DNA of 32,569 nucleotides from an uncultured Bacteroidales bacterium (lineage in GTDB: Bacteria; Bacteroidota; Bacteroidia; Bacteroidales; Bacteroidaceae). The notes below the pieces were generated by a model that made no database searches, had not been told where the DNA came from, and worked only from the letters and a program-made list of their open reading frames with translations. Where the stretch lies: NCBI GenBank assembly GCA_902788275.1, contig CADAJV010000035.1, forward strand, positions 1-32,569, read 5' to 3'. Positions 5,387 through 15,294 of the stretch are shown one piece after another. The position numbers were made by a program, and so were the translations under genes. Each line of letters begins with the position of its first letter. Within the stretch, counting starts at the first letter, position 1.

Positions 5387-5536
5387 TGTGTGCAGATTCC
5401 GCAGATTTATTATCTCACACAGATTGCACAGATTGCACAGACTTGGATAAATTGAGAATTGAGAATTGATAATTGAAATTTAGCAAGCCAGTGGACATAA
5501 ACAAACACGAATTGCACGAATAACACGAATACCGAA

Positions 5537-5610
5537 GGTATCGCGAAGACTCTGTCAGTGGTCGCGCCTTGGCGCGGGCTGACAAAAAAGAGTCTGAGAG
5601 CGAAGCGGCA
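5537..5610. repeat. Structured hairpin element, copy 1
   Basis: On the plus strand, GGTATCGCGA is followed by AGACTCTGTCAG (5547-5558). A central TGGTCGCGCC-TT-GGCGCGGG segment comes next, then CTGAC (5579-5583), an A5 bulge, AGAGTCT (5589-5595) and GAGAGCGAAGCGGCA. The two arms pair as a 12-bp stem interrupted by a 5-base bulge. Copy 2, on the other strand at 14056-14153, has a different stem sequence but the same stem length, the same bulge position, and the same flanks and loop words. Confidence 0.75.
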
Positions 5611-5641
5611 TAGTTGATAGTTGATAATTGATAATTATACC

Positions 5642-5727
5642 ATGTCCGGGAGTGGACAAAAGTGAACACGGATTGAACGGATTGAACGGATGTTTTTAGT
5701 CGCTGTGCGACCCGCAGATTTCGCAGA
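5642..5727. repeat. 86-bp direct repeat, second copy
   Basis: Second copy of the module at 5301-5386, with 5 mismatches in 86 bases. The GTCGCTGTGCGAC hairpin and the ACGGAT words are conserved. Confidence 0.85.
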
Positions 5728-6061
5728 CTTATTTTTGATTTCGCTGATTTATTAGGTCACACAGATTTCACAGATTACACGGATTTTTTTTCTGACCACG
5801 GATCTCACGAATTGACACGAATATTTTTAGATGACAGACTACGGTCTGCTTTGTTAACAAAGGTTGCTTTTGTTTTGAAGTACCTCTGAAAGCGAGTTTT
5901 CATGGTTCTTCTCCCAAAAATCAACTCATCATCTAAAAAGAATTCTTATCTGTGTTAATCCGTTTTATCTGTGTTCGTTAAACTACTATTTTTCTTGACC
6001 ACGGATTGCACGAATTACTACGAGTGGAGGGTAAAAAAGCCTCTATTGAAAATCAAAGACA

Positions 6062-6097
6062 AAATAAATCCCCGATGGAGACATCGGGGATTTATTT
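6062..6097 (-). terminator. Terminator of the cysteine-rich protein gene
   Basis: A perfect 16-bp inverted repeat (arms 6062-6077 and 6082-6097) encloses a GAGA tetraloop. The stem core is CCCCGATG/CATCGGGG and the outer part is A/T rich, giving T-rich tails on both strands. It lies 22 bases past the stop codon of the minus-strand gene that begins at 6817. Confidence 0.85.
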
Positions 6098-6118
6098 CTT
6101 GTGATGAAGGGAGAGTGA

Positions 6119-6817
6119 TTACTTCTTGCAGCCCTTGCACTTGGAGCAGTCTTTCTTACAGTCAGTGCACTTGGTGCAGCCCTTCTTGCAGTCCTTGCAC
6201 ATAGTGCAACCTTTCTTGCAATCAGCCTTGGCACACTGCTTCTTGTCCTTGGGGCATGGCTTCTGGCAATCCTTCATGCCGTGGCCCCTGAATCCACGGT
6301 GGCCCTGAGGACCGGCATGGCGCTGGGGCATGATGCTACGCTCAATCATCTTGTCGGTGCGCCAGGCCTGAAACTGCTCGGGGGTGAGTATCTCGGAGAG
6401 AGCCTTCACATAAGGCATCGGCTGATGGCCGGCAGCTTTATCGCATTTCTGACCATCCTTGTTGCAGTCGCCCTTGTCGCAGTCTTTCTTGCCCTTGGGG
6501 CATTCAGCCTTGGCAGCGTCTTTCTTGCAGTCGGCCTTGTCGCATTTCTGCTTGTCCCTGGGGCACTCGGCCTTCTGGCCCTTGGGGCATGCCTTACGGC
6601 TGAGGACCTTGGTGTTGAGGTCGAGGAGCTTGGTCTTCTGGTCGGCGGTGAGGTCATAGGCCTTGGCCATGCGGTCGGTAATGATCTGTGCCTTCTGTTC
6701 GGGGGTGAGCATAGCACACTGTCCCTTATTCTGCTGGTCACACTTAGCAGGTTCCTGTGCCATCATTGTGGCGAGCCCCAGAATAAGACTGAGACTAAAA
6801 ATGATTGTTCTTTTCAT
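6119..6817 (-). CDS. Secreted cysteine-rich protein with LTxxQ motifs (DUF4890/Spy-like)
   Basis: The start at 6817 gives MKRTIIFSL, a signal peptide that probably ends after ATMMAQ (about residue 21). An ATG four codons upstream is the alternative. The 232-residue protein has LTPEQ or LTADQ motifs at 37-41, 56-60 and 144-148, the hallmark of Spy/CpxP/ZraP-like periplasmic helical proteins and of the related DUF4890 family. Unusually, it carries 23 cysteines, all after the signal peptide. The tail (200-230) is a regular ten-residue repeat CKKxCxxCxx, and an earlier lysine-rich segment (77-125) has ten-plus residue repeats with KCDKADCKK-like units. Histidines and glycines lie between. This suggests metal binding, as in ZraP, or disulfide-rich structure; neither is shown. 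It is a single-gene unit with a strong terminator. Confidence 0.75.
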   Translation of the reverse strand: MKRTIIFSLSLILGLATMMAQEPAKCDQQNKGQCAMLTPEQKAQIITDRMAKAYDLTADQKTKLLDLNTKVLSRKACPKGQKAECPRDKQKCDKADCKKDAAKAECPKGKKDCDKGDCNKDGQKCDKAAGHQPMPYVKALSEILTPEQFQAWRTDKMIERSIMPQRHAGPQGHRGFRGHGMKDCQKPCPKDKKQCAKADCKKGCTMCKDCKKGCTKCTDCKKDCSKCKGCKK

Positions 6818-7054
6818 TGTAATAAGCATTTTAGCGGATTAAACATTTTCTGTCTGTAAGACTGATGTGCCTACCCAAAGTTTAATCCTTACATATAAGT
6901 TTAACATTCTTTAAGCAAAGCGTTTCCGGGGGGGGGCTTTAGGTCCCGTAGAAATTAAAGGAAATAAAGGATATTTATAAACTTTGATTGGATGACAAAT
7001 ATTTCTGATGCTTCTGCTATTTCTGCGAGACTTCATAAAGAAAGTCATCATTTA

Positions 7055-7438
7055 TCAACTGGAGCGGCGCTTCTGTTCCTTGGCCAGTTCGGCAGGGATG
7101 CGGAAGGCGGCGTAAAGCTGGAAGATGGCGGCGATGAGGAGTGCTATGAGCCATTCGTTGTGGCGCATGTAGGTCATGTGATACTGATGACCAAACATTA
7201 GGGCACCGCTGAGAACCAGAAGGAGGGCACCGAAGATCTGCTGGCGGCGCAGACGGCGAATGACGACGCTGTCACCCTCGTAGCTGGCCAGCATCTGCAT
7301 GGAGGCGAACATCAGGGCGCCAGCACTATAGATATAGGGTGCCAGCTTGCTGTCGAGGGGATTGAGCATGGCACCGATGATGATAAGGACACCGCCAAGG
7401 CGGTAGATAAAGAGTTGGAGACTATTCAGCTGTTTCAT
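7055..7438 (-). CDS. Small integral membrane protein of unknown function
   Basis: The 127-residue protein starts at MKQLNSLQ; an ATG six codons upstream is the alternative. It has about four hydrophobic stretches (roughly residues 10-26, 34-52, 69-88 and 96-112). A basic segment RRLRRQQ sits between the second and third, and the tail AKEQKRRSS is positively charged. I do not recognise a named family. Its start overlaps the last 17 bases of the divIC-like gene, so the two are probably translated from one message. Confidence 0.7.
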   Translation of the reverse strand: MKQLNSLQLFIYRLGGVLIIIGAMLNPLDSKLAPYIYSAGALMFASMQMLASYEGDSVVIRRLRRQQIFGALLLVLSGALMFGHQYHMTYMRHNEWLIALLIAAIFQLYAAFRIPAELAKEQKRRSS

Positions 7439-7730
7439 CTTCAAATACGTAAACATCCTCGTTTTCGTTCTTCATATAATATTTCTCACGCGCAATGCGC
7501 ACCACGGCATTGGGGTCGCGCTGGAGCTCCATATACAGCCGCGTATCGCGCTCATACTGCGAGCGGTAGGCCTCGATCTCAGACCTTAGAGCGCTCTCCT
7601 CCTTGTAAAGCTGATAGCGATTGTAAAGGCTGTTGGAGTCGAGAAAGGCTATAAGGGCCACAAAGATAACGATGGTGGTGGCATACTTATGGCGACCTAA
7701 ATATCTGAAGAAACGCTTGATGATGAGCAT
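7422..7730 (-). CDS. Cell division protein of the DivIC/FtsB family
   Basis: The 102-residue protein has a short cytoplasmic N-terminus, one membrane segment (about residues 17-33) and a periplasmic coiled coil (about 36-70). The end AREKYYMKNENEDVYVFE is typical of Bacteroidetes septum formation initiators. These proteins act in the divisome with FtsL and FtsQ to activate septal wall synthesis. The gene is first in a two-gene unit with the small membrane protein. Its 5' untranslated region holds fourteen GGAGTGA-type heptamers directly upstream of the start, and a -7 promoter box lies at 7925-7932. Confidence 0.85.
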   Translation of the reverse strand: MLIIKRFFRYLGRHKYATTIVIFVALIAFLDSNSLYNRYQLYKEESALRSEIEAYRSQYERDTRLYMELQRDPNAVVRIAREKYYMKNENEDVYVFEDETAE

Positions 7731-7732
7731 GG

Positions 7733-7830
7733 GGAGTTAGGAGTTAGGAGTGAGGAGTGAGGAGTGAGGAGTTAGGAGTGAGGAGTGAGGAGTGAGGAGT
7801 GAGGAGTTAGGAGTTAGGAGTGAAGAGTGA
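7733..7830. repeat. Fourteen heptamers of GGAGTTA/GGAGTGA
   Basis: An exact 7-base period runs for 98 bases with only two main unit variants (GGAGTTA and GGAGTGA) and one AGAGTGA. It abuts the divIC start codon and lies in the leader of that gene. Downstream the period continues loosely as GTGCGAG and TTATTGG-like units up to about 7910. Confidence 0.95.
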
Positions 7831-7924
7831 GGAATTGGAATAAAAGTGCGAGAGTGCGGGAGTGCGAATCTCAAATAATTATTGTTTATTGGTTATTGAT
7901 TGTTGGTTTATGTGAATTTCATTG

Positions 7925-7932
7925 CAAAGATA
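7925..7932 (-). promoter_or_regulatory. Promoter -7 box for divIC-like gene
   Basis: On the minus strand the sequence is TATCTTTG followed by CAA, a full match to TAnnTTTG(C). It lies back to back with the sppA promoter at 7975. The predicted leader is about 190 bases long and contains the heptamer tract. I see no good -33 TTTG. Confidence 0.5.
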
Positions 7933-7974
7933 ACAAATGTTGGGAAGAAAAAAGCATGATTCGGCGAAAATCAT

Positions 7975-7982
7975 TACTTTTG
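7975..7982 (+). promoter_or_regulatory. Promoter -7 box for sppA
   Basis: TACTTTTG followed by CAA matches TAnnTTTG(C) and sits 21 bases before the ATG at 8004. This supports the start at 8004 over the longer reading frame that opens at 7827. Confidence 0.6.
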
Positions 7983-8003
7983 CAAATAAAAAACTTTATT
8001 ACT

Positions 8004-9809
8004 ATGTCAAGCAACACAAACCAAAAATTTCCGTGGACCAAGCATTTTTGGCTTAATGTCCTGTCGTCAACTGTCGGTTTTGTAATCGGCGCAGTAATAC
8101 TTACCTTCATAGGCATAGCCATCATTGTGGGCCTCATGGCGGGCGGCAGCAATGTTGCGTCGGTAAAGAGCAACAGCGTACTGCACCTGCACCTCAGCGG
8201 TGTGCTGAACGAGCAGCATCGCGACAATCCCCTGACGACCCTCATGGGCGACGATGAACCTACCCTCGGCCTCAACGAGATGCTCAAGGCCATCAAGATG
8301 GCCAAGGAGGACGATAACATAAAAGCCATCTGGCTGGAGGGCGGTGCTTTTGGTGCCGACCCCGCCTCGATGCAGGAGCTGCGCGGTGCGCTGGCAGACT
8401 TCAAGACATCGGGCAAGAAGATATACGCTTACGCCGACAACTACATGCAGGGCACCTACTACCTCTGCTCGGTGGCCGACAAGGTGGTGCTCAACCCCAT
8501 AGGTACGCTGGACTGGCACGGCCTGAGCTCGCAGATAACCTTCTACAAGGACCTGATGGCCAAGCTGGGAGTGAAGATGCAGGTGTTTAAGGTGGGTACA
8601 TACAAGAGTGCCGTGGAGCCATACACCGAGACACAGATGAGCCCCGCCAACAGAGAGCAGATAACGGCCTTCCTCGGCGATATATGGCAGACCTTCGTGA
8701 ACGACGTGAGCAAGAGCCGCAAGCTCTCTGCCGGGACGCTCAACGCCCTGGCCGACAAGTATATGGCCTTCACATCGGGCAAGGAGATAAAAGCCAGCAA
8801 GCTGGTGGACGAGCTGATGTATAAGGATGAGTTTACCGACATGCTGAAGAAAGCCCTGGGCGTAAAGGAGAAGGATGACCTCAACCTGGTGGAGCCCGAA
8901 GCCCTGTGTGAGACAGACCCGCAGGACATTGACCAGGACGACCAGGTGGCCATCTATTACGCCGAAGGCGAGATAGTGGATGTGGCCGAAGCCGGACTGA
9001 TGAGCGAAGCCTCGATAGTGGGCAGTAAGGTCAACAAAGACCTGCAGAAACTGGCCGACAACGACAAGGTAAAGGCCGTGGTGCTGCGTATCAACTCGGG
9101 CGGCGGCAGTGCCTATGCCTCAGAGCAGATGTGGCACAACATCAAGCGCCTGGCCAAGAAGAAGCCCGTGATTATCTCGATGGGTGGACTGGCAGCCTCG
9201 GGCGGCTACTATATGTCGGCCGGCGGCGACTACATCTTTGCCGAGCCCACGACGCTGACAGGTTCGATAGGCATCTTCGGCATGATACCCGATGCCAGCG
9301 AGCTGCTGACCAATAAGCTGGGACTGAAATATGACGTGGTGAAGACCAACAAGCTCTCCGACTTCGGCAACATAGGCCGCCCGTTCAGCGAGGAGGAGGG
9401 CAGTCGTCTGCAGAAATATGTGGAGAACGGATACAGCCTCTTCCTGAGTCGCGTGGCCGAGGCACGCAAGAAGACGACAGCCCAGATAGACAGCATTGCG
9501 CAGGGTCGTGTATGGACCGGCAGGCAGGCGCTGAAGCTGGGACTGGTGGATAAGCTCGGCACACTGAACGATGCCGTGAAATATGCCGCCGCCAAGGCCA
9601 AGATGGGCGATGACTATAATGTGGTGGAATACCCCGAGGTGCTGCCCTGGTATGCCGAGCTGGCACTGAGCAGCGCAGGAGAGCAGGCATACGCCGGCAA
9701 GCTGCGCGCCACCCTTGGCGAACTGTATGAGCCCTTCATTGCCATGCAGGGAGTGAAGAACGGCAGCAATGTGTTTGCACGCGTACCATACATTATAAAG
9801 ATTAAGTGA
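8004..9809 (+). CDS. sppA: Signal peptide peptidase SppA, 67-kDa long form
   Basis: SppA is a membrane-anchored serine protease with a Ser-Lys dyad that cleaves leftover signal peptides on the outer face of the inner membrane. The 601-residue protein has one membrane anchor near the N-terminus (about residues 17-45) followed by two S49 peptidase domains, the long arrangement known from E. coli. The general-base lysine is K201 in GTYKSAVEP and the nucleophile is S399 in LAASGGYYM. The frame is open back to 7827, but that extension is encoded by repeats and lies upstream of the promoter. lpxK and thiL follow on the same strand. Confidence 0.93.
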   Translation: MSSNTNQKFPWTKHFWLNVLSSTVGFVIGAVILTFIGIAIIVGLMAGGSNVASVKSNSVLHLHLSGVLNEQHRDNPLTTLMGDDEPTLGLNEMLKAIKMAKEDDNIKAIWLEGGAFGADPASMQELRGALADFKTSGKKIYAYADNYMQGTYYLCSVADKVVLNPIGTLDWHGLSSQITFYKDLMAKLGVKMQVFKVGTYKSAVEPYTETQMSPANREQITAFLGDIWQTFVNDVSKSRKLSAGTLNALADKYMAFTSGKEIKASKLVDELMYKDEFTDMLKKALGVKEKDDLNLVEPEALCETDPQDIDQDDQVAIYYAEGEIVDVAEAGLMSEASIVGSKVNKDLQKLADNDKVKAVVLRINSGGGSAYASEQMWHNIKRLAKKKPVIISMGGLAASGGYYMSAGGDYIFAEPTTLTGSIGIFGMIPDASELLTNKLGLKYDVVKTNKLSDFGNIGRPFSEEEGSRLQKYVENGYSLFLSRVAEARKKTTAQIDSIAQGRVWTGRQALKLGLVDKLGTLNDAVKYAAAKAKMGDDYNVVEYPEVLPWYAELALSSAGEQAYAGKLRATLGELYEPFIAMQGVKNGSNVFARVPYIIKIK

Positions 9810-9816
9810 CGGTTGA

Positions 9817-9928
9817 CTGTTTATGGTTTACTGTTTACTGTTTACCGTTTACGGTTTACGGTTTACGGTTTACGGTTTATGGTTTACTGTTTACGGTTTA
9901 TGGGTTACGGTTTACGGTTTACCGTTTA
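9817..9928. repeat. Sixteen heptamers of CGGTTTA/CTGTTTA
   Basis: A 7-base period runs for about 112 bases between sppA and lpxK with units CGGTTTA, CTGTTTA, CCGTTTA and TGGTTTA. It begins eight bases after the sppA stop. The reverse complement of the same unit (GTAAACA/GTAAACG) recurs six times at 12520-12561. Confidence 0.95.
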
Positions 9929-9989
9929 CAGATTTGAAATTGAACATTTAGGAGTTAGAAGGAGATAGAAGGAGATAGAGGACGTTAGT

Positions 9990-10080
9990 AAATTGAAAAT
10001 TGAGAATTGAAAATTGAAAATTACTTTCCGGACTTGGCTTCTATAACCAATAACCTATAACCTATAACGAAGGAGATAGA
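9990..10080. repeat. Mixed short-period repeats ahead of lpxK
   Basis: Four ATTGAAA-type heptamers are followed by TTTCCGGACTTGGCTTC, an inverted copy of the CCAAGTCCGG word. Four ATAACCT heptamers (10043-10070) and GGAGATAGA complete the stretch. The last unit supplies the GAAGGAGA ribosome-binding sequence of lpxK, and GGACTTGGC, which contains the TTG start codon, repeats the word at 10030. Confidence 0.8.
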
Positions 10081-10084
10081 GGAC

Positions 10085-11131
10085 TTGGCAGGAAAGAGTT
10101 TCATAACATATCCGGCGGTGCGGCCCCTGGCATGGATATACGGTCGCATAATGCGGGTGCGCAACAGGCGCTTTGACACTGGTAGTACGCCAGTGAGCAC
10201 CGTGGATGTGCCCGTAATCAGCGTGGGCAACCTCAGCGTAGGGGGCACGGGCAAGACGCCCATGTGTCGCTGGCTGCTGGGGGTGCTGACCGAGCAGGGA
10301 CTAAAGCCCGCCATGCTGTCGCGCGGCTACGGCAGAAACACGCAAGGATTCAGGCATGTGGACACCAACAGCACTGCCGACGAGGTGGGCGATGAGCCGC
10401 TGGAGGTGTTCAATGACTTTGACGGCAAGGTGCCGGTGTTTGTCTGCGAAGACCGTGTGCACGGCGCACAGCGCATGCTGCAGCATGACAGGAGTATCAA
10501 CGTCATAGTGCTGGACGATGCCTACCAGCACCGGTTTCTGCATCGCGACATCAACATACTGCTGACCGACTACAGCCGCCTCTACACCCGCGACCGCGTG
10601 ATACCCGAGGGACGACTGCGCGAGCTGCCCGAGGGAGCCGCCAGGGCCGACATAATAATCGTCACCAAGTGTCCGGCCGACCTCGGCAGAGAGGAGGCCG
10701 ACGCCCTGACACGCGAGCTGAAGCCAAGGGAAAGGCAGCAGGTGTTCTTCTCCGCCATCAAGTATGAGCCGCTAGACACAGACCTGAGCGACAAACGCTT
10801 GCTCATCTTTACCGGCATTGCCAATCCGCGACCGCTGGTGAGCCACTATGACGGCAAGGGACTGTCGATGGAGACACTGCAATTTGCCGACCACCACAGG
10901 TTTACCGACCGCGACATCAACAAGGTGGCGACGGCTGCCGACAAGGCCGACATAGTAATAACGACAGCCAAGGACTACAGCCGACTGCCCAAGGACATAC
11001 CCGACAGTCTGCGCAGTAAGCTGCACGTGCAACGCATAGGAGTGGAGATACTGCTGGGTCAGGAAGAAGAAGTAAGGAAGACCATATCTAAACTTTCTAC
11101 CCATACGCCAAGTCCGGGAAGTGGCCACTGA
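10085..11131 (+). CDS. lpxK: Tetraacyldisaccharide 4'-kinase LpxK
   Basis: LpxK transfers phosphate from ATP to the 4' position of the lipid A disaccharide at the inner membrane. The 348-residue protein has the family start pattern YP-x-WIYGRIMRVRNRRFD, a membrane-associating stretch, then the P-loop VGGTGKTP (52-59). SRGYGR and the acidic DDAYQHR block follow. The start is TTG at 10085, preceded by GAAGGAGA. The next in-frame Met is at residue 23, inside the conserved N-terminus, so TTG is the likely true start. The last nine residues (HTPSPGSGH) are encoded by a copy of the intergenic word CCAAGTCCGGGAAGTGG, so the C-terminus seems to have been rewritten by a repeat. sppA lies upstream and thiL downstream. 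Confidence 0.93.
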   Translation: MAGKSFITYPAVRPLAWIYGRIMRVRNRRFDTGSTPVSTVDVPVISVGNLSVGGTGKTPMCRWLLGVLTEQGLKPAMLSRGYGRNTQGFRHVDTNSTADEVGDEPLEVFNDFDGKVPVFVCEDRVHGAQRMLQHDRSINVIVLDDAYQHRFLHRDINILLTDYSRLYTRDRVIPEGRLRELPEGAARADIIIVTKCPADLGREEADALTRELKPRERQQVFFSAIKYEPLDTDLSDKRLLIFTGIANPRPLVSHYDGKGLSMETLQFADHHRFTDRDINKVATAADKADIVITTAKDYSRLPKDIPDSLRSKLHVQRIGVEILLGQEEEVRKTISKLSTHTPSPGSGH

Positions 11132-11155
11132 ATGACACAGGCATCGCGAAGCGGC
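11106..11155. repeat. Dispersed repeat words at the end of lpxK, with empty hairpin site
   Basis: GCCAAGTCCGGGAAGTGG matches the start of the 86-bp repeats at 5301 and 5642, the inverted word at 10030 and, more weakly, 12402-12420. Nine bases on, GGCATCGCGAAGCGGC (11140-11155) equals the joined flanks of the structured hairpin element without the hairpin. Confidence 0.7.
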
Positions 11156-11246
11156 AGTTATACAGACAGAAAATATATTTCAAGAATTAGAGAATTTTAT
11201 AATTCATGCTTAAAGGACTACTAATTTCACGAATCATACGAGAATA

Positions 11247-12290
11247 ATGGATAAGAGAACAGAAATATCTACCTTGGGCGAGTTTGGGCTCATCCGCCAC
11301 CTGACCGAAGACATAAAGACACAGCAGGCCAGCACCCACAAAGGTGTGGGCGATGACTGCGCAGTGATATCAGCCAACAACAGCGAGACACTGGTGACCA
11401 CCGACCTGCTGCTGGAGGGCATACACTTTGACCTGACCTACGTACCGCTGAAGCACCTGGGATATAAGGCTGCCTCAGTGAACATATCAGACATCTATGC
11501 CATGAACGGCACACCTACCCAGATGGTGGTGAGCCTCGGCATTAGCAAGCGCTTCAGCGTGGAGGACATGGAGCAGCTATACGACGGCATCAAGCTGGCA
11601 TGCCGGAACCACGGCGTGGATATAGTGGGCGGCGACACGACATCATCGCTGACAGGGCTGACCATCAGCATAACATGCATAGGCATGGCAGACAAGGAGG
11701 ATATTGTCTATCGTTCAGGAGCCAAGGACACCGACCTGGTATGCGTAAGCGGCGACCTGGGTGCTGCCTATATGGGACTGCAGCTGCTGGAGAGAGAGAA
11801 GGCAGTGTTTAACCAGCAAGGCAACAAGGACAAGGAGGTGCAGGCGCAGCCCGACTTCCAAGGGAAGGAATACCTGCTGGAACGACAGCTGAAGCCCGAG
11901 GCACGCGGCGATATCATCAAGAAACTGAAGGAGGCGGGCGTCAAGCCCACAGCGATGATTGATGTGTCGGACGGTCTGTCGTCGGAGCTGCTGCATATAT
12001 GCCACGAGAGCCACTGCGGATGCTCGGTATATGAGGAGCGCATCCCCATAGACTACCAGACGGGCATACAGGCAGAGCAGTTTGGCATCAGTGCCGTGAC
12101 CTGCGCCCTCAACGGTGGCGAAGACTATGAACTGCTTTTCACCGTGAGCCTCAAAGACTACGAGAAGATAAGTCAGATAGAAGGTGTCCACATCATCGGA
12201 CGCATACAGAAGGAAGAGCTCGGTGCACTACTGGTGACACGCGACGGAGCCGAATATCCGCTGCAGGCACAGGGGTGGCAGCACTTATGA
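11247..12290 (+). CDS. thiL: Thiamine-monophosphate kinase ThiL
   Basis: ThiL phosphorylates thiamine monophosphate to thiamine diphosphate, the last step in making the cofactor. The 347-residue protein has the AIR-synthase/ThiL fold signatures: GVGDDCAV with paired aspartates at 36-37, TTDLLLEGIHFD, NISDIYAM, VGGDTTSS and MIDVSDGLSSEL. Length is normal for the family. It follows lpxK by 115 bases with no clear terminator between, so it may be cotranscribed. No TPP riboswitch is visible upstream. Confidence 0.93.
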   Translation: MDKRTEISTLGEFGLIRHLTEDIKTQQASTHKGVGDDCAVISANNSETLVTTDLLLEGIHFDLTYVPLKHLGYKAASVNISDIYAMNGTPTQMVVSLGISKRFSVEDMEQLYDGIKLACRNHGVDIVGGDTTSSLTGLTISITCIGMADKEDIVYRSGAKDTDLVCVSGDLGAAYMGLQLLEREKAVFNQQGNKDKEVQAQPDFQGKEYLLERQLKPEARGDIIKKLKEAGVKPTAMIDVSDGLSSELLHICHESHCGCSVYEERIPIDYQTGIQAEQFGISAVTCALNGGEDYELLFTVSLKDYEKISQIEGVHIIGRIQKEELGALLVTRDGAEYPLQAQGWQHL

Positions 12291-12325
12291 AGAGCCAAGT
12301 AGAGAGGCGAGAAACTTTTCAGTTA

Positions 12326-12402
12326 GTCGCAAAGTCGCAAAGTCTCAAAGTCGCAAAGCCATTTTAATTTGACGATTAGACGATTTCACGATTGGACGAT
12401 TT
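12326..12402. repeat. Two octamer tracts
   Basis: Four GTCGCAAA units (12326-12357, one reads GTCTCAAA) are followed by four GACGATTA/GACGATTT/CACGATTG units (12371-12402). Both have an 8-base period but unrelated unit sequences. A diverged GCCGAATCCGG...ACGGAT module comes after. Confidence 0.9.
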
Positions 12403-12519
12403 AGCCGAATCCGGTAGCGGGCGATTACAAACACGGATCGTACGGATCTAACGGATAATCAAAATCCTCTAATTCTTGACAGAAAAAAATCTCTTGGCTC
12501 TTGATTCTCGCGATAAACC

Positions 12520-12569
12520 GTAAACAGTAAACAGTAAACGGTAAACGCTAACCGCTAACCCCGGGGTTA
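12520..12569. repeat. Six GTAAACA-type heptamers ending in a 14-base palindrome
   Basis: Units GTAAACA, GTAAACA, GTAAACG, GTAAACG, CTAACCG, CTAACCC run straight into TAACCCCGGGGTTA (12556-12569), a perfect palindrome. Its last three bases are the stop codon of the minus-strand DUF4369 gene. Confidence 0.9.
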
Positions 12570-13271
12570 AAAGTCGCCCTGCATGAGTCGCATATTGAAG
12601 CGGGCATCGCGCAGATAGCTCTGCACCTCAGGATTCTGAAGGAATGACTCGGGGGCGTGCTTGATGATTTTCTCTATCTGGGGAGTGATGACGGGATAGA
12701 AATACTGAGATGTGTATTCCATAAAATAGATAGGCCCAAGGACATTGTCGCTATTGCTACTGATGAAATTAGTCCATAGCTTGTCGAGACGATCCTGCAG
12801 GTTCTCATTGCGGCGCTCTATCTGCAGATGAGTGGCGGGGCCTGCACCGGCCATAATCAGTCGGGCGAGGCTGTGGGTGTTGTTCTGAATCTCGTTCTGC
12901 AAGCGTGCATTCTCATTAAGAAACTTATAGAGGCGCTCGTTGAGAGTGCCGCCACGTACCGTCTGCTCGGTGTCGGTGAAGCTTATCTGTATCTCGCCGC
13001 TCTCCAGCACGATAGGCAGCAGGCTGTTGGTGCCCATATAAAGCTGAGCCATGCACACAGTGTCGATGATGCCCTCAAAACCAAAGCGGCCATGCACCAC
13101 CTCGGCAGAGTCATAAGGAGCCACCGAGTTGTCGGCACTCATCACCTTGAGGTATAGCACATTGCCATCGTAGGTGGGTACCGACGAATTGCCCATGATA
13201 TTATACTGATCGCTGCACGAAGAGAGCAACGCCATCACGGGGGCTATGAGCATTATGACAAACTTGGGCAT
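12567..13271 (-). CDS. DUF4369-type lipoprotein
   Basis: The 234-residue protein begins with a lipoprotein signal whose lipobox is LSSC (cysteine at 19), so it should be lipid-anchored and exported. The N-terminal half (about 28-110), with short beta-strand motifs such as VHGRFGFEGIID and LPIVLESGEIQI, fits the DUF4369 domain of Bacteroidetes. That domain is often fused to a thioredoxin-like domain, which is missing here. The C-terminal half is helical and charged (NENARLQNEIQNN, RRNENLQDRLDKLW). Function is unknown. It is transcribed alone, divergently from slyD, with a -7 box 24 bases upstream of the start. Confidence 0.75.
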   Translation of the reverse strand: MPKFVIMLIAPVMALLSSCSDQYNIMGNSSVPTYDGNVLYLKVMSADNSVAPYDSAEVVHGRFGFEGIIDTVCMAQLYMGTNSLLPIVLESGEIQISFTDTEQTVRGGTLNERLYKFLNENARLQNEIQNNTHSLARLIMAGAGPATHLQIERRNENLQDRLDKLWTNFISSNSDNVLGPIYFMEYTSQYFYPVITPQIEKIIKHAPESFLQNPEVQSYLRDARFNMRLMQGDF

Positions 13272-13294
13272 GTCAGTTTATTGATTTTGACATG

Positions 13295-13302
13295 CAAAGA
13301 TA
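13295..13302 (-). promoter_or_regulatory. Promoter -7 box for the DUF4369 gene
   Basis: The minus strand reads TATCTTTG followed by CATG, a full TAnnTTTG(C) match, 24 bases before the start codon at 13271. No well-placed -33 TTTG is seen. Confidence 0.55.
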
Positions 13303-13429
13303 TTCGTTTATCTGCAAAGAAGTGAGTGTTTGGGCAATAATTAAGTGAGATTTTAGCATTATTTTTGATTTGCTCAACGTCATGCCGAGTTTTTTAACAC
13401 TTTATCTAAGTAATGTCGCAGTTTTTCAG

Positions 13430-13437
13430 TACCTTTG
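13430..13437 (+). promoter_or_regulatory. Promoter -7 box for slyD
   Basis: TACCTTTG followed by CAAC fits TAnnTTTG(C). The start codon is 34 bases downstream after an A-rich leader. This is the divergent partner of the box at 13295-13302. Confidence 0.6.
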
Positions 13438-13470
13438 CAACAAGAGTAATATAAAACCAACATAACCATT

Positions 13471-14025
13471 ATGGCAGAGAATAAATATTACAAGCTAAGC
13501 TATGAGCTCTTTGCCCACGACAAAGAAGGCGGCACCCCCATACTGGTGGAGAAGACCAGTGCCGACCACCCTTTTGAGTTCATAACAGGGCTGGGCTATA
13601 CCCTACCCGACTTTGAGCAAGAGATATCACAACTGGACGGTAGCGCGAAGTTTGACTTCGTCATTCCCTGCGAACGTGCCTACGGCGAATATGACGAGGC
13701 ACACGTCAAGACGCTGCCCAAGGAGATTTTTCGTGACAAAGACAACCATTTCGCCATAGAGAGCGTGTATCCCGGCAACGTCATTCCAATGGAGAACGAG
13801 GAGGGCATGCAGTTTGAAGGCCTGGTGAAGGAAGTGAACCCCACCAACGTAGTGGTAGACTTCAATCATCCGCTGGCAGGCGTGGACCTGCAGTTTCGCG
13901 GTGAGGTAATCAATAGCCACGAGGCTACCCCGCAAGAGATAACCGCCTTCCTCAACATTATGTCAGACGAATGTAGCGGCTGCGATGGCGGAGAGTGCGG
14001 ATGCGGGCACTGCCACGGGAAATAG
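13471..14025 (+). CDS. slyD: SlyD-like FKBP-type peptidyl-prolyl isomerase
   Basis: SlyD proteins are cytoplasmic prolyl isomerases and chaperones that also bind nickel through a metal-rich tail. The 184-residue protein has an FKBP part split by the chaperone flap: residues 1-70 contain LVEKTSADHPFEFITGLGYTLPDFEQEISQ-type sequence, about 75-125 is the inserted flap, and VVDFNHPLAGVDLQFRGEV closes the domain. The tail ECSGCDGGECGCGHCHGK has five cysteines and two histidines, as expected for metal binding. The tail is shorter than in E. coli. It is transcribed from its own promoter; a heptamer and hairpin region separates it from aroC. Confidence 0.88.
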   Translation: MAENKYYKLSYELFAHDKEGGTPILVEKTSADHPFEFITGLGYTLPDFEQEISQLDGSAKFDFVIPCERAYGEYDEAHVKTLPKEIFRDKDNHFAIESVYPGNVIPMENEEGMQFEGLVKEVNPTNVVVDFNHPLAGVDLQFRGEVINSHEATPQEITAFLNIMSDECSGCDGGECGCGHCHGK

Positions 14026-14055
14026 TTGATAGTTGAGAGTTGAAAATTGATAATT

Positions 14056-14153
14056 GCCGCTTCGCTCTCGAACTTCTTTATATCGGCCCGCGCCTAAAAA
14101 GCATCCTTGCTTTTTCGAGACGGCGAGACCACCGATGAAGTTCTCGCGATGCC
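14056..14153. repeat. Structured hairpin element, copy 2
   Basis: In plus orientation, GCCGCTTCGCTCTC is followed by GAACTTC (14070-14076), the bulge TTTAT and ATCGG (14082-14086). CCCGCGCC comes next, then an inner hairpin AAAAAGCA-TCCT-TGCTTTTT (14096-14115). The downstream arm is CGGCGAGACCA, CCGATGAAGTTC (14132-14143) and TCGCGATGCC. The outer stem is 7 + 5 bp with a 5-base bulge, the geometry seen in copy 1 (5537-5610, inverted). Flanks and loop words are conserved while both stem arms differ. It may also act as a terminator after slyD. Confidence 0.75.
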
Positions 14154-14160
14154 TGCAGCA

Positions 14161-14214
14161 TTGACAATTGAGAATTGAGAATTGAGAATTGAAAATTAAG
14201 AATTGAGAATTTAA
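14161..14214. repeat. TTGAGAA-type heptamers abutting aroC
   Basis: About seven units (TTGACAA, TTGAGAA, TTGAAAA and variants) run to within a few bases of the aroC ATG. The message therefore has no Shine-Dalgarno, only an A/G-rich repeat leader. A similar run lies at 14025-14056 just after slyD. Confidence 0.9.
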
Positions 14215-14217
14215 TTA

Positions 14218-15294
14218 ATGAATACTTTCGGACATATATTCAGGGTGACCTCCTTTGGCGAGAGCCATGGTCCCGCCATTGGCGGAGTGATTGACGGAAT
14301 GCCGGCAGGCATTGAGGTGGACGAGGACTTCCTGCAATGCGAGATGGCCCGGCGGCGTCCCGGACAGAGCGACCTCACCACCCAGCGCACGGAGGCTGAC
14401 AATGTGGAGCTGCTCTCAGGCGTGTTTGAGGGCAAGACAACAGGCACACCCATAGGATTTATGGTGCGCAACACCTCGCAGCACTCGGCCGACTACGACA
14501 ACCTGCGCCAGATATTCCGTCCCTCGCACGCCGACTACACATATCAGACCAAATATGGGCTGCGCGACCACCGCGGCGGCGGACGCTCATCGGCACGCGA
14601 GACCATCACACGAGTGGTGGGCGGTGCCTTCGCCAAGATGGCCCTGCGCCAACTGGGCATCAGTGTGCAGGCCTACACCTCACAGGTGGGCGACATAAAG
14701 CTCAACCACGACTACAAGGCCTACAACCTGAAGATGGCGGAGTATAACGCCGTGCGCTGTCCTGACCAGGTGAAGGCACAGGAGATGGCCAACCTCATCA
14801 ATGCCGTGAGGCTGGAGGGCGACACCGTGGGCGGAGTGATAAGCTGCGTGGTGAAAGGCTGTCCTGCCGGCCTCGGCGAACCAGTGGCTGGCAAGCTGCA
14901 CGCACAGCTGGGTGCCGCCATGCTCAGCATAAACGCCGCCAAGGGTTTTGAGTACGGCCTGGGATTTGCCGGTGCCGCAGGCAGAGGCTCAGAGCAGAAC
15001 GATGCCTTTGTGCCTGACGGAGCATCGCGCATCACCACCGCCAGCAACAACAGCGGCGGCATACAGGGCGGCATAAGCAACGGTCAGGACATATATTTCC
15101 GCGTGGCTTTCAAACCCGTGGCCACACTGCTGAGAGAGCAGCAGACCGTTGATCTGAACGGCAATGCCGTGGAGTTTAAGGCCAAGGGGCGTCACGACCC
15201 CTGCGTGCTGCCCAGGGCAGTGCCCGTGGTGGAGGCCATGACCGCCATGGTGATACTCGACAACTACCTGCTAAACAAGACTACTCACCTATAA
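14218..15294 (+). CDS. aroC: Chorismate synthase AroC
   Basis: AroC removes phosphate from 5-enolpyruvylshikimate 3-phosphate to give chorismate, using reduced FMN. The 358-residue protein has the family signatures [11 protein letters not shown] (H17), [44 protein letters not shown] and [12 protein letters not shown]. Length is normal. It is followed 15 bases later by the GH20 gene on the same strand, so the two are probably cotranscribed though functionally unrelated. Its product is the entry substrate of the trp operon about 9 kb downstream. The start is set by the family N-terminus [18 protein letters not shown]. Confidence 0.96.

Follow-up and report, generated by a model that had tools for sequence, protein, structure and literature searches.

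Two hairpin elements in the window

The window, i.e. the whole stretch of 32,569 nt analysed here (positions 1 to 32,569 of contig CADAJV010000035.1, assembly GCA_902788275.1, from an uncultured Bacteroidales bacterium), carries two copies of a short element with three hairpins, one on each strand (Table 1). Covariation of the stems and precise empty sites argue for a mobile hairpin with a maintained structure. A preliminary description of the same DNA had reported two related hairpins at 5537-5610 and 14056-14153, and both are present there with slightly wider ends in the covariance model, which scores copy 1 at 99.6 bits and copy 2 at 80.8 bits. It was also right that the arms have changed together, since the P1 and P2 arms of both copies pair with their 3' arms, with the five-base bulge in the same place. 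Compared with shuffled sequences, the folding energies of copies 1 and 2 have z values of -2.9 and -3.3 as DNA and of -3.1 and -3.6 as RNA.

The element is mostly 76-107 nt long. Its plan consists of a left flank SAA (S is G or C), a head hairpin TGCC-GNA-GGCA, the word TCGCGA, the stems P1 (7 bp) and P2 (5 bp), an internal loop TGGT / GG and the stem P3, followed in the 3' half by P2', an A-rich bulge, P1', GAGA, a tail hairpin GC-GNA-GC and the end GGCAA. Among 80 copies from the same genome, the search expression fitted 68 heads and 65 tails, of which 65 and 59, respectively, have a GNA triloop. In copies of the TGGT type, T, G and the C that follows the loop vary hardly or not at all. Sub-types have other stems in place of P2 and P3, or a hairpin added in P3 as in copy 2 of the window, and a short sub-type in genomes G010 and G015 has only the head, GAAC-GAA-GTTC and the tail.

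Table 1. Coordinates of the element copies, their parts and a related site in the window.
Feature	Position	Strand	Remarks
Copy 1, mobile hairpin element	5530-5611	+	82 nt, short P3 type; left flank CACGAA, 3' end GCGGCAT
Copy 1, head hairpin TACC-GAA-GGTA (GNA triloop)	5530-5540	+	Co-varied relative to the family consensus TGCC-GNA-GGCA; helix 1, 4/4 pairs change on both sides
Copy 1, P1 5' arm AGACTCT	5547-5553	+	Partner 5589-5595; helix 2, 7/7 pairs change on both sides
Copy 1, P2 5' arm GTCAG	5554-5558	+	Partner 5579-5583; helix 3, 4/5 pairs change on both sides
Copy 1, internal loop TGGT / GG with P3 and loop (CGCGCC-TT-GGCGCG)	5559-5578	+	
Copy 1, five-base A-rich bulge (AAAAA)	5584-5588	+	
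Copy 1, tail mini-hairpin GC-GAA-GC (helix 5)	5600-5606	+	
Probable collapsed copy remnant, GGCATCGCGAAGCGGCA	11140-11156	+	3' part of the head fused to the tail end
Copy 2	14054-14160	-	107 nt, extra hairpin in P3; between an FKBP-like gene and aroC
Copy 2, P1 5' arm GAACTTC	14137-14143	-	Partner 14070-14076
Copy 2, P2 5' arm ATCGG	14132-14136	-	Partner 14082-14086
Copy 2, five-base bulge ATAAA	14077-14081	-	

Covariation of the stems

The genome to which the window belongs comprises 2.48 Mb in 93 contigs and is 86.8% complete. The covariance model was built from 27 of its own copies, and in this alignment 17 of the 22 pairs change on both sides, 96.5% of the cells are paired, and none of 500 shuffles reaches any of the measures. 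Larger alignments, which had been fitted to the structure beforehand, give a similar picture: 19/22 pairs and 93.9% paired cells for the 80 own copies (2/500 shuffles reach the pair count and 0/500 the other measures), and 21/22 pairs and 96.1% for 53 copies from relatives, 49 of them distinct (0/500 shuffles). When the partner was slid by 1-3 columns as a control, pairing fell to 27-44%. In the 80 own copies the loop, the bulge and the GNA triloops persist while the stem pairs change. Helices 1 and 5 constitute subterminal hairpins at both ends, helix 5 having only two pairs that are mostly invariant. An outer stem GC.TCGC / GCGA.GC obtained by folding was rejected, as it shows no covariation and competes with the covarying head and tail hairpins.

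Size and spread of the family

The model matches 124 places in the own genome at E<=0.01, dispersed over many contigs, when 150 of 1195 first-look candidates were scored; in a BLAST search 40 matches were listed. Chance resemblance of two hairpins is excluded by the 124 matches. The preliminary description had regarded chance as more likely if no further copies were found or if their arms were unpaired, and there are many further copies with 93.9-96.5% of the pair cells standard.

A search of 61 genomes with the model (stricter filters, 75 candidates scored per genome) found the element in 9 of the 19 genomes of the genus, the own genome included, and in none of the 42 genomes outside it; carrier G010 is recognized by a single weak match (E 5.8e-4). 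In a wider search of 399 genomes of the family (E<=1e-4, likewise with stricter filters, 11 candidates scored per genome) nine match, eight from the genus and G310 from another genus. With so few candidates scored, and G010 missed by the wider search, these absences count for little where copies are rare or diverged. A model of the core only, run over 40 genomes, recovered G310 (E 5.5e-6) and none of the 39 others, the short forms of G010 and G015 included.

G310 has two neighbouring copies 19 nt apart that follow the same plan with different stems, sharing GAA followed by TG at the left boundary, CAA at the right, TCGGCGA, GGT/G-type loops and a GAAAA bulge. The first copy, with a GCA head triloop, reaches only E 0.006 in the full model, and the head of the second does not fit GNA. 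Common to the two genera are the head hairpin, TCG(G)CGA, P1, an AAAA-type bulge, P2, a GGT/GG-type loop, P3 and a GAG...CAA end.

Matches to the junction word outside Bacteroidales (Oscillospiraceae, Chloroflexi, Lentibacter, Deltaproteobacteria) were set aside, as no element is visible at them and the model score is 20.9 bits or less, or none. The viral contigs do not contain the exact junction word, and BLAST gave no match to copy 1 among the plasmids; neither search extended to the annotated phage and E. coli collections.

Insertion sites and target

The boundaries were examined by removing the unit TGCC...GGCAA, joining the 13-base flanks and seeking the join in the compared sequences with known copies masked. 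Up to 3 mismatches in the 26 bases counted as a match, and the flanks sufficed for 59 of 61 arrays. Joined without duplication, 22/59 arrays have an uninterrupted site, 10 of them within 1 mismatch, and shuffled flank pairs gave 1/57, 1/58, 4/58 and 1/59. Shifted joins recovered nothing at -3 to -1, 2-6 and 9-12 (0/59), one site at 1, two at 8 and eight at 7, which is the period of the AT-rich arrays housing many copies. Without masking 29/59 joins were found, against 2-5 for shuffled flanks. Several unmasked matches (e.g. L011) lay in 7-bp arrays or touched other copies, and the masked recount was used for the final counts. Clean empty sites correspond to the copies at L025 and L026 (one place), L112, L113, L018, L017:2047, L012:6566, L056, L017:12588, L022 and L028. 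The join of copy 1 of the window found no empty site.

At L015:9875-11098 the reading frame of a gene encoding a rhodanese plus metallo-hydrolase protein (Pfam) runs through a copy that adds 28 residues; in G016, a close relative, the same gene is uninterrupted, with a net difference of 84 nt. The gap between the FKBP-like gene and aroC, which houses copy 2, has no element in G011, G008, G013 and G012, and in G016 holds a partial copy at a contig end, of another sub-type and in the other orientation. Short repeats similar to those around copy 2 are present in the aroC gap of G008 and G011 without the element.

Left flanks end with GAA or CAA in 43/61 own arrays against a background of 3.3%, and in 30/38 hand-picked copies of relatives. 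The last three element bases are CAA in 48/61 own arrays. Of 18 neighbours on the same strand no more than 200 nt apart, 15 adjoin directly with no base between them. As the unit inserts after GAA or CAA and itself ends with CAA, a copy supplies a further target at its 3' end, in keeping with the exact head-to-tail arrays. Judged from flanks and joins, the mobile unit is TGCC...GGCAA, bounded at the left between SAA and TGCC and at the right directly after GGCAA, and inserted without target duplication. A 9-bp target duplication had been considered from a 9-base flank similarity (z 5.7) and was rejected, as joins assuming it recover no empty site; the similarity is due to the 7-bp arrays (7+2). 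Nor do the join shifts show the fixed target duplication that, together with terminal inverted repeats, marks DDE-type miniature inverted-repeat transposable elements.

In the preliminary description a comparison of gaps was proposed for the presence or absence of a hairpin between TCGC repeats. The element is larger than a TCGC-bounded hairpin and includes the TGCC-GNA-GGCA head and the GC-GNA-GC tail. Both alternatives offered there, structural selection and a small mobile hairpin, are supported, by the covariation over dozens of copies and by the precise empty sites. The site at 11140-11155, taken there for a pre-insertion or precise-loss state, has to be read differently. The 17-mer at 11140-11156 is exact and every other place in the window has at least 3 mismatches to it; in GGCATCGCGAAGCGGCA the 3' part of the head and the tail end are joined at a shared GCGA(A). 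Clean empty sites elsewhere hold neither head nor tail words, so this is not an empty site, and it is most simply, and probably, an internally deleted remnant of a copy. In G016 neither element nor remnant is present at this place, the lpxK gap, and further collapsed copies were seen at L176 and L177.

The repeats around many copies raise the alternative of immobile palindromes that spread by gene conversion and slippage, with the stems repaired by hairpin templating. Apart from the surrounding AT-rich arrays, it could draw on the orthologous copies at the end of a gdhA-like gene in G000, G016 and G001, which differ as units. Templated repair should however erase the bulge and the internal loop, which are both conserved, and clean empty sites lie outside repeats; this explanation is largely refuted by the empty sites and we give it very little credence. 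Another alternative is small circles with the junction GGCAATGCC that integrate at SAA by site-specific recombination, similar to integron attC sites or by another tyrosine recombinase. The absence of target duplication, the exact head-to-tail arrays and an imperfect hairpin with fixed extra-helical bases would all be expected, but no GTTRRRY box occurs at either end of the 80 copies, the targets share little beyond SAA and the copies are found on many contigs, making circles an unlikely source.

Neighbouring repeats

Intergenic arrays of 7-bp units (AATTGAT, AACTATC, AAATTTG) and of a 20-bp unit ATCTAAGAGCCTTGAAACGA surround many elements, in the window at 14010-14220 and at many other own loci. 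The word CCAAGTCC(G/A)GA, often followed by GG(C)CACTGAA, adjoins elements at 11105-11135 of the window and at L010, L067, L022 and L100; CCAAGTCC is apparently another dispersed repeat. A copy common to two genomes (L012:2295-2960 in G000 contig C17, and L091 in G016) is interrupted by some 590 bp of AT-rich sequence whose ends, CCTCTATTG and CAATAGGGG, are near-inverted. At L018 (G000, contig C21) a tRNA-like 3' end, TCGCCTCTTTCCGACA, is present three times with an element between the second and third, and L075 in G013 has a near-identical element with the same right flank. At L114 (G000), L095 (G016) and L072 (G001) the element is located beside the 3' end of a gene that we take to be gdhA, the stems of the three copies differ, and in G000 and G001 about 40 bp of the gene end are repeated after the element.

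DNA or RNA

Covariation this strong, with a kept internal loop and bulge and RNA folding z values below -3 for both window copies, could also indicate a structured non-coding RNA, spread by retroposition or duplication like a bacterial short interspersed element, the covariation then reflecting an RNA function. No copy has an Rfam match (window at gathering scores, five element loci at E<=1). G.T accounts for 3.4% of the standard pairs in the own copies, and G.U for 8.2% in 18 distinct tRNAs from loci fetched for the analysis, a comparison that takes in decayed copies and counts cells which depend on one another. Of 61 arrays, 33 could be placed relative to neighbouring genes by crude open reading frame (ORF) calls, with 15 opposite to both, 8 in the same direction as both, 6 convergent and 4 divergent; ORFs of at least 100 aa are overlapped by 19/61 arrays and not by 42/61. 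Besides this lack of a consistent orientation, one copy interrupts a gene in frame, and the duplication expected of target-primed reverse transcription is missing, so that an RNA seems improbable to us. GNA triloops are described as extraordinarily stable DNA minihairpins in the titles of Hirao 1994 and Yoshizawa 1997, cited in PMC11101458. The G.T share, the GNA triloops and the occurrence in both gene orientations modestly favour folded DNA over RNA.

Model of movement and search for the enzyme

In our judgement the unit is rather likely to be a non-autonomous single-strand element of the HUH type (histidine-hydrophobic-histidine nucleases), similar to insertion sequences (IS) of the IS200/IS605 family or to repetitive extragenic palindromic (REP) elements, moved by a putative enzyme. 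The absence of duplication, the fixed short target, its imitation at the right end, the terminal hairpins and the bulge are indicative of such behaviour. The unit would move as folded single-stranded DNA and, as for IS200/IS605 and REP elements, an HUH-type nuclease would recognize its shape. This nuclease might cut after SAA at the left and after CAA at the right, and new copies would land beside old ones because the element's own end imitates the target. The E. coli REP transposase TnpAREP requires an unpaired bulge in the REP stem, according to the available text of PMC8266576.

Several observations weigh against an HUH-type element. No Y1 transposase (PF01797) was found in the own genome, and 8/9 carriers have no PF01797 match in a search that found E. 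coli and four other controls, although single absences prove little in carriers that are 63-92% complete. The only carrier with a Y1 gene is G011 (L085), where no element is found in the surrounding 3.3 kb at E<=0.1. IS608-type elements prefer the lagging-strand template, and the arrays have no strand bias relative to local GC skew, a weak proxy (42 vs 43 arrays). The GTAG/CGTC tag is found in 0/80 copies near the 5' end and in 2/80 within the last 8 bases. As group 3 TnpAREPs recognize unbulged hairpins (available part of PMC8266576), a bulge is no general mark of HUH recognition. At the level of insertion sites, 37/59 joins found no empty site in the compared sequences, and of the 22 matches 9 are array-like, copy 2 of the window among them, and 2 touch element sequence; the remaining 11 are clean and represent 10 places. 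The best fit for the coding join at L015 has two altered bases and an overlap of one base, which leaves room for some imprecision at the left boundary. With no PF01797 in the own genome or in 8/9 carriers and no strand bias, an HUH-type mover and its mechanism are putative.

GTAG does occur inside the head, in copies with a GTA triloop only (17/68). The Y1_Tnp gene of G011 is surrounded by palindromes of its own, of the CGCCCCTACGGGGC type, and was rejected as the mover, as its locus has no element, other palindromes lie around it and three non-carriers also have a Y1_Tnp gene.

As a special case of an HUH-type unit, this could be a true REP-type element whose REP-associated tyrosine transposase (RAYT) either no longer exists or has diverged beyond the reach of PF01797, e.g. 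TnpAREP subclass 2.6. In the available part of PMC6006769 this subclass is mostly from Bacteroidetes and lies next to 'atypical secondary structures' that also occur at other places in the genome, and the required bulge of E. coli REPs (PMC8266576, in part) also fits. With PF01797 missing from 8/9 carriers despite working controls, and no GTAG/CGTC tag, we regard the special case as tentative. Equally speculative is the broader proposal of a superfamily of mobile DNA defined by shape, extending over two genera with entirely different stem letters, moved by an enzyme that is not a recognizable Y1 transposase and seeding tandem arrays because its 3' end copies the target.

The family accounts for part of the repeat-filled intergenic DNA in this lineage. 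More than 100 copies of one folded DNA in this genome, relatives from the genus with and without them and exact empty sites constitute a natural experiment, and a gene comparison of the 9 carriers with the 10 non-carriers offers a way to seek the determinants of structure recognition and the mover enzyme.

Comparison with known systems

Rickettsia palindromic elements are palindromic repeats that are also inserted in frame inside genes. The present element is likewise palindromic with an in-frame insertion (L015), but structure and taxon differ, and most arrays lie outside the ORF calls. Integron attC sites are imperfect hairpins with fixed extra-helical bases and free stem letters, which is also true here, whereas the GTTRRRY boxes are missing and the copies are dispersed over the genome.

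The IS200/IS605 family inserts without target duplication, and the element has none either; its head-to-tail junction is as expected of a circle. Further common traits, by the available part of PMC6006769, are a fixed short left target, a related right-end motif and subterminal hairpins. The element differs in that no TnpA (PF01797) is found in the genome, in having no lagging-strand bias, and in that most of it is one long covarying hairpin.

REP sub-families with alternative complementary residues in their stems are known (available text of PMC3733652), so that a mobile hairpin with variable stems is in itself not new. Like REPs and REPINs (REP doublets forming hairpins) mobilized by TnpAREP (RAYT), the element is a high-copy palindrome that has such sub-families and a bulge, of the E. 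coli type, kept among copies. Unlike REPs, which are 21-65 nt in the available part of PMC6006769, it is mostly 76-107 nt, has three hairpins and no GTAG/CGTC end tag, lacks a Y1 gene in 8/9 carriers and imitates its target at the 3' end. No description of this family was found in the literature searched, most subscription papers being outside that search. As far as we are aware, the three-hairpin plan, the lack of both a tag and a Y1 gene, the imitation of the target by the element itself and the conservation of the plan in another genus are new.

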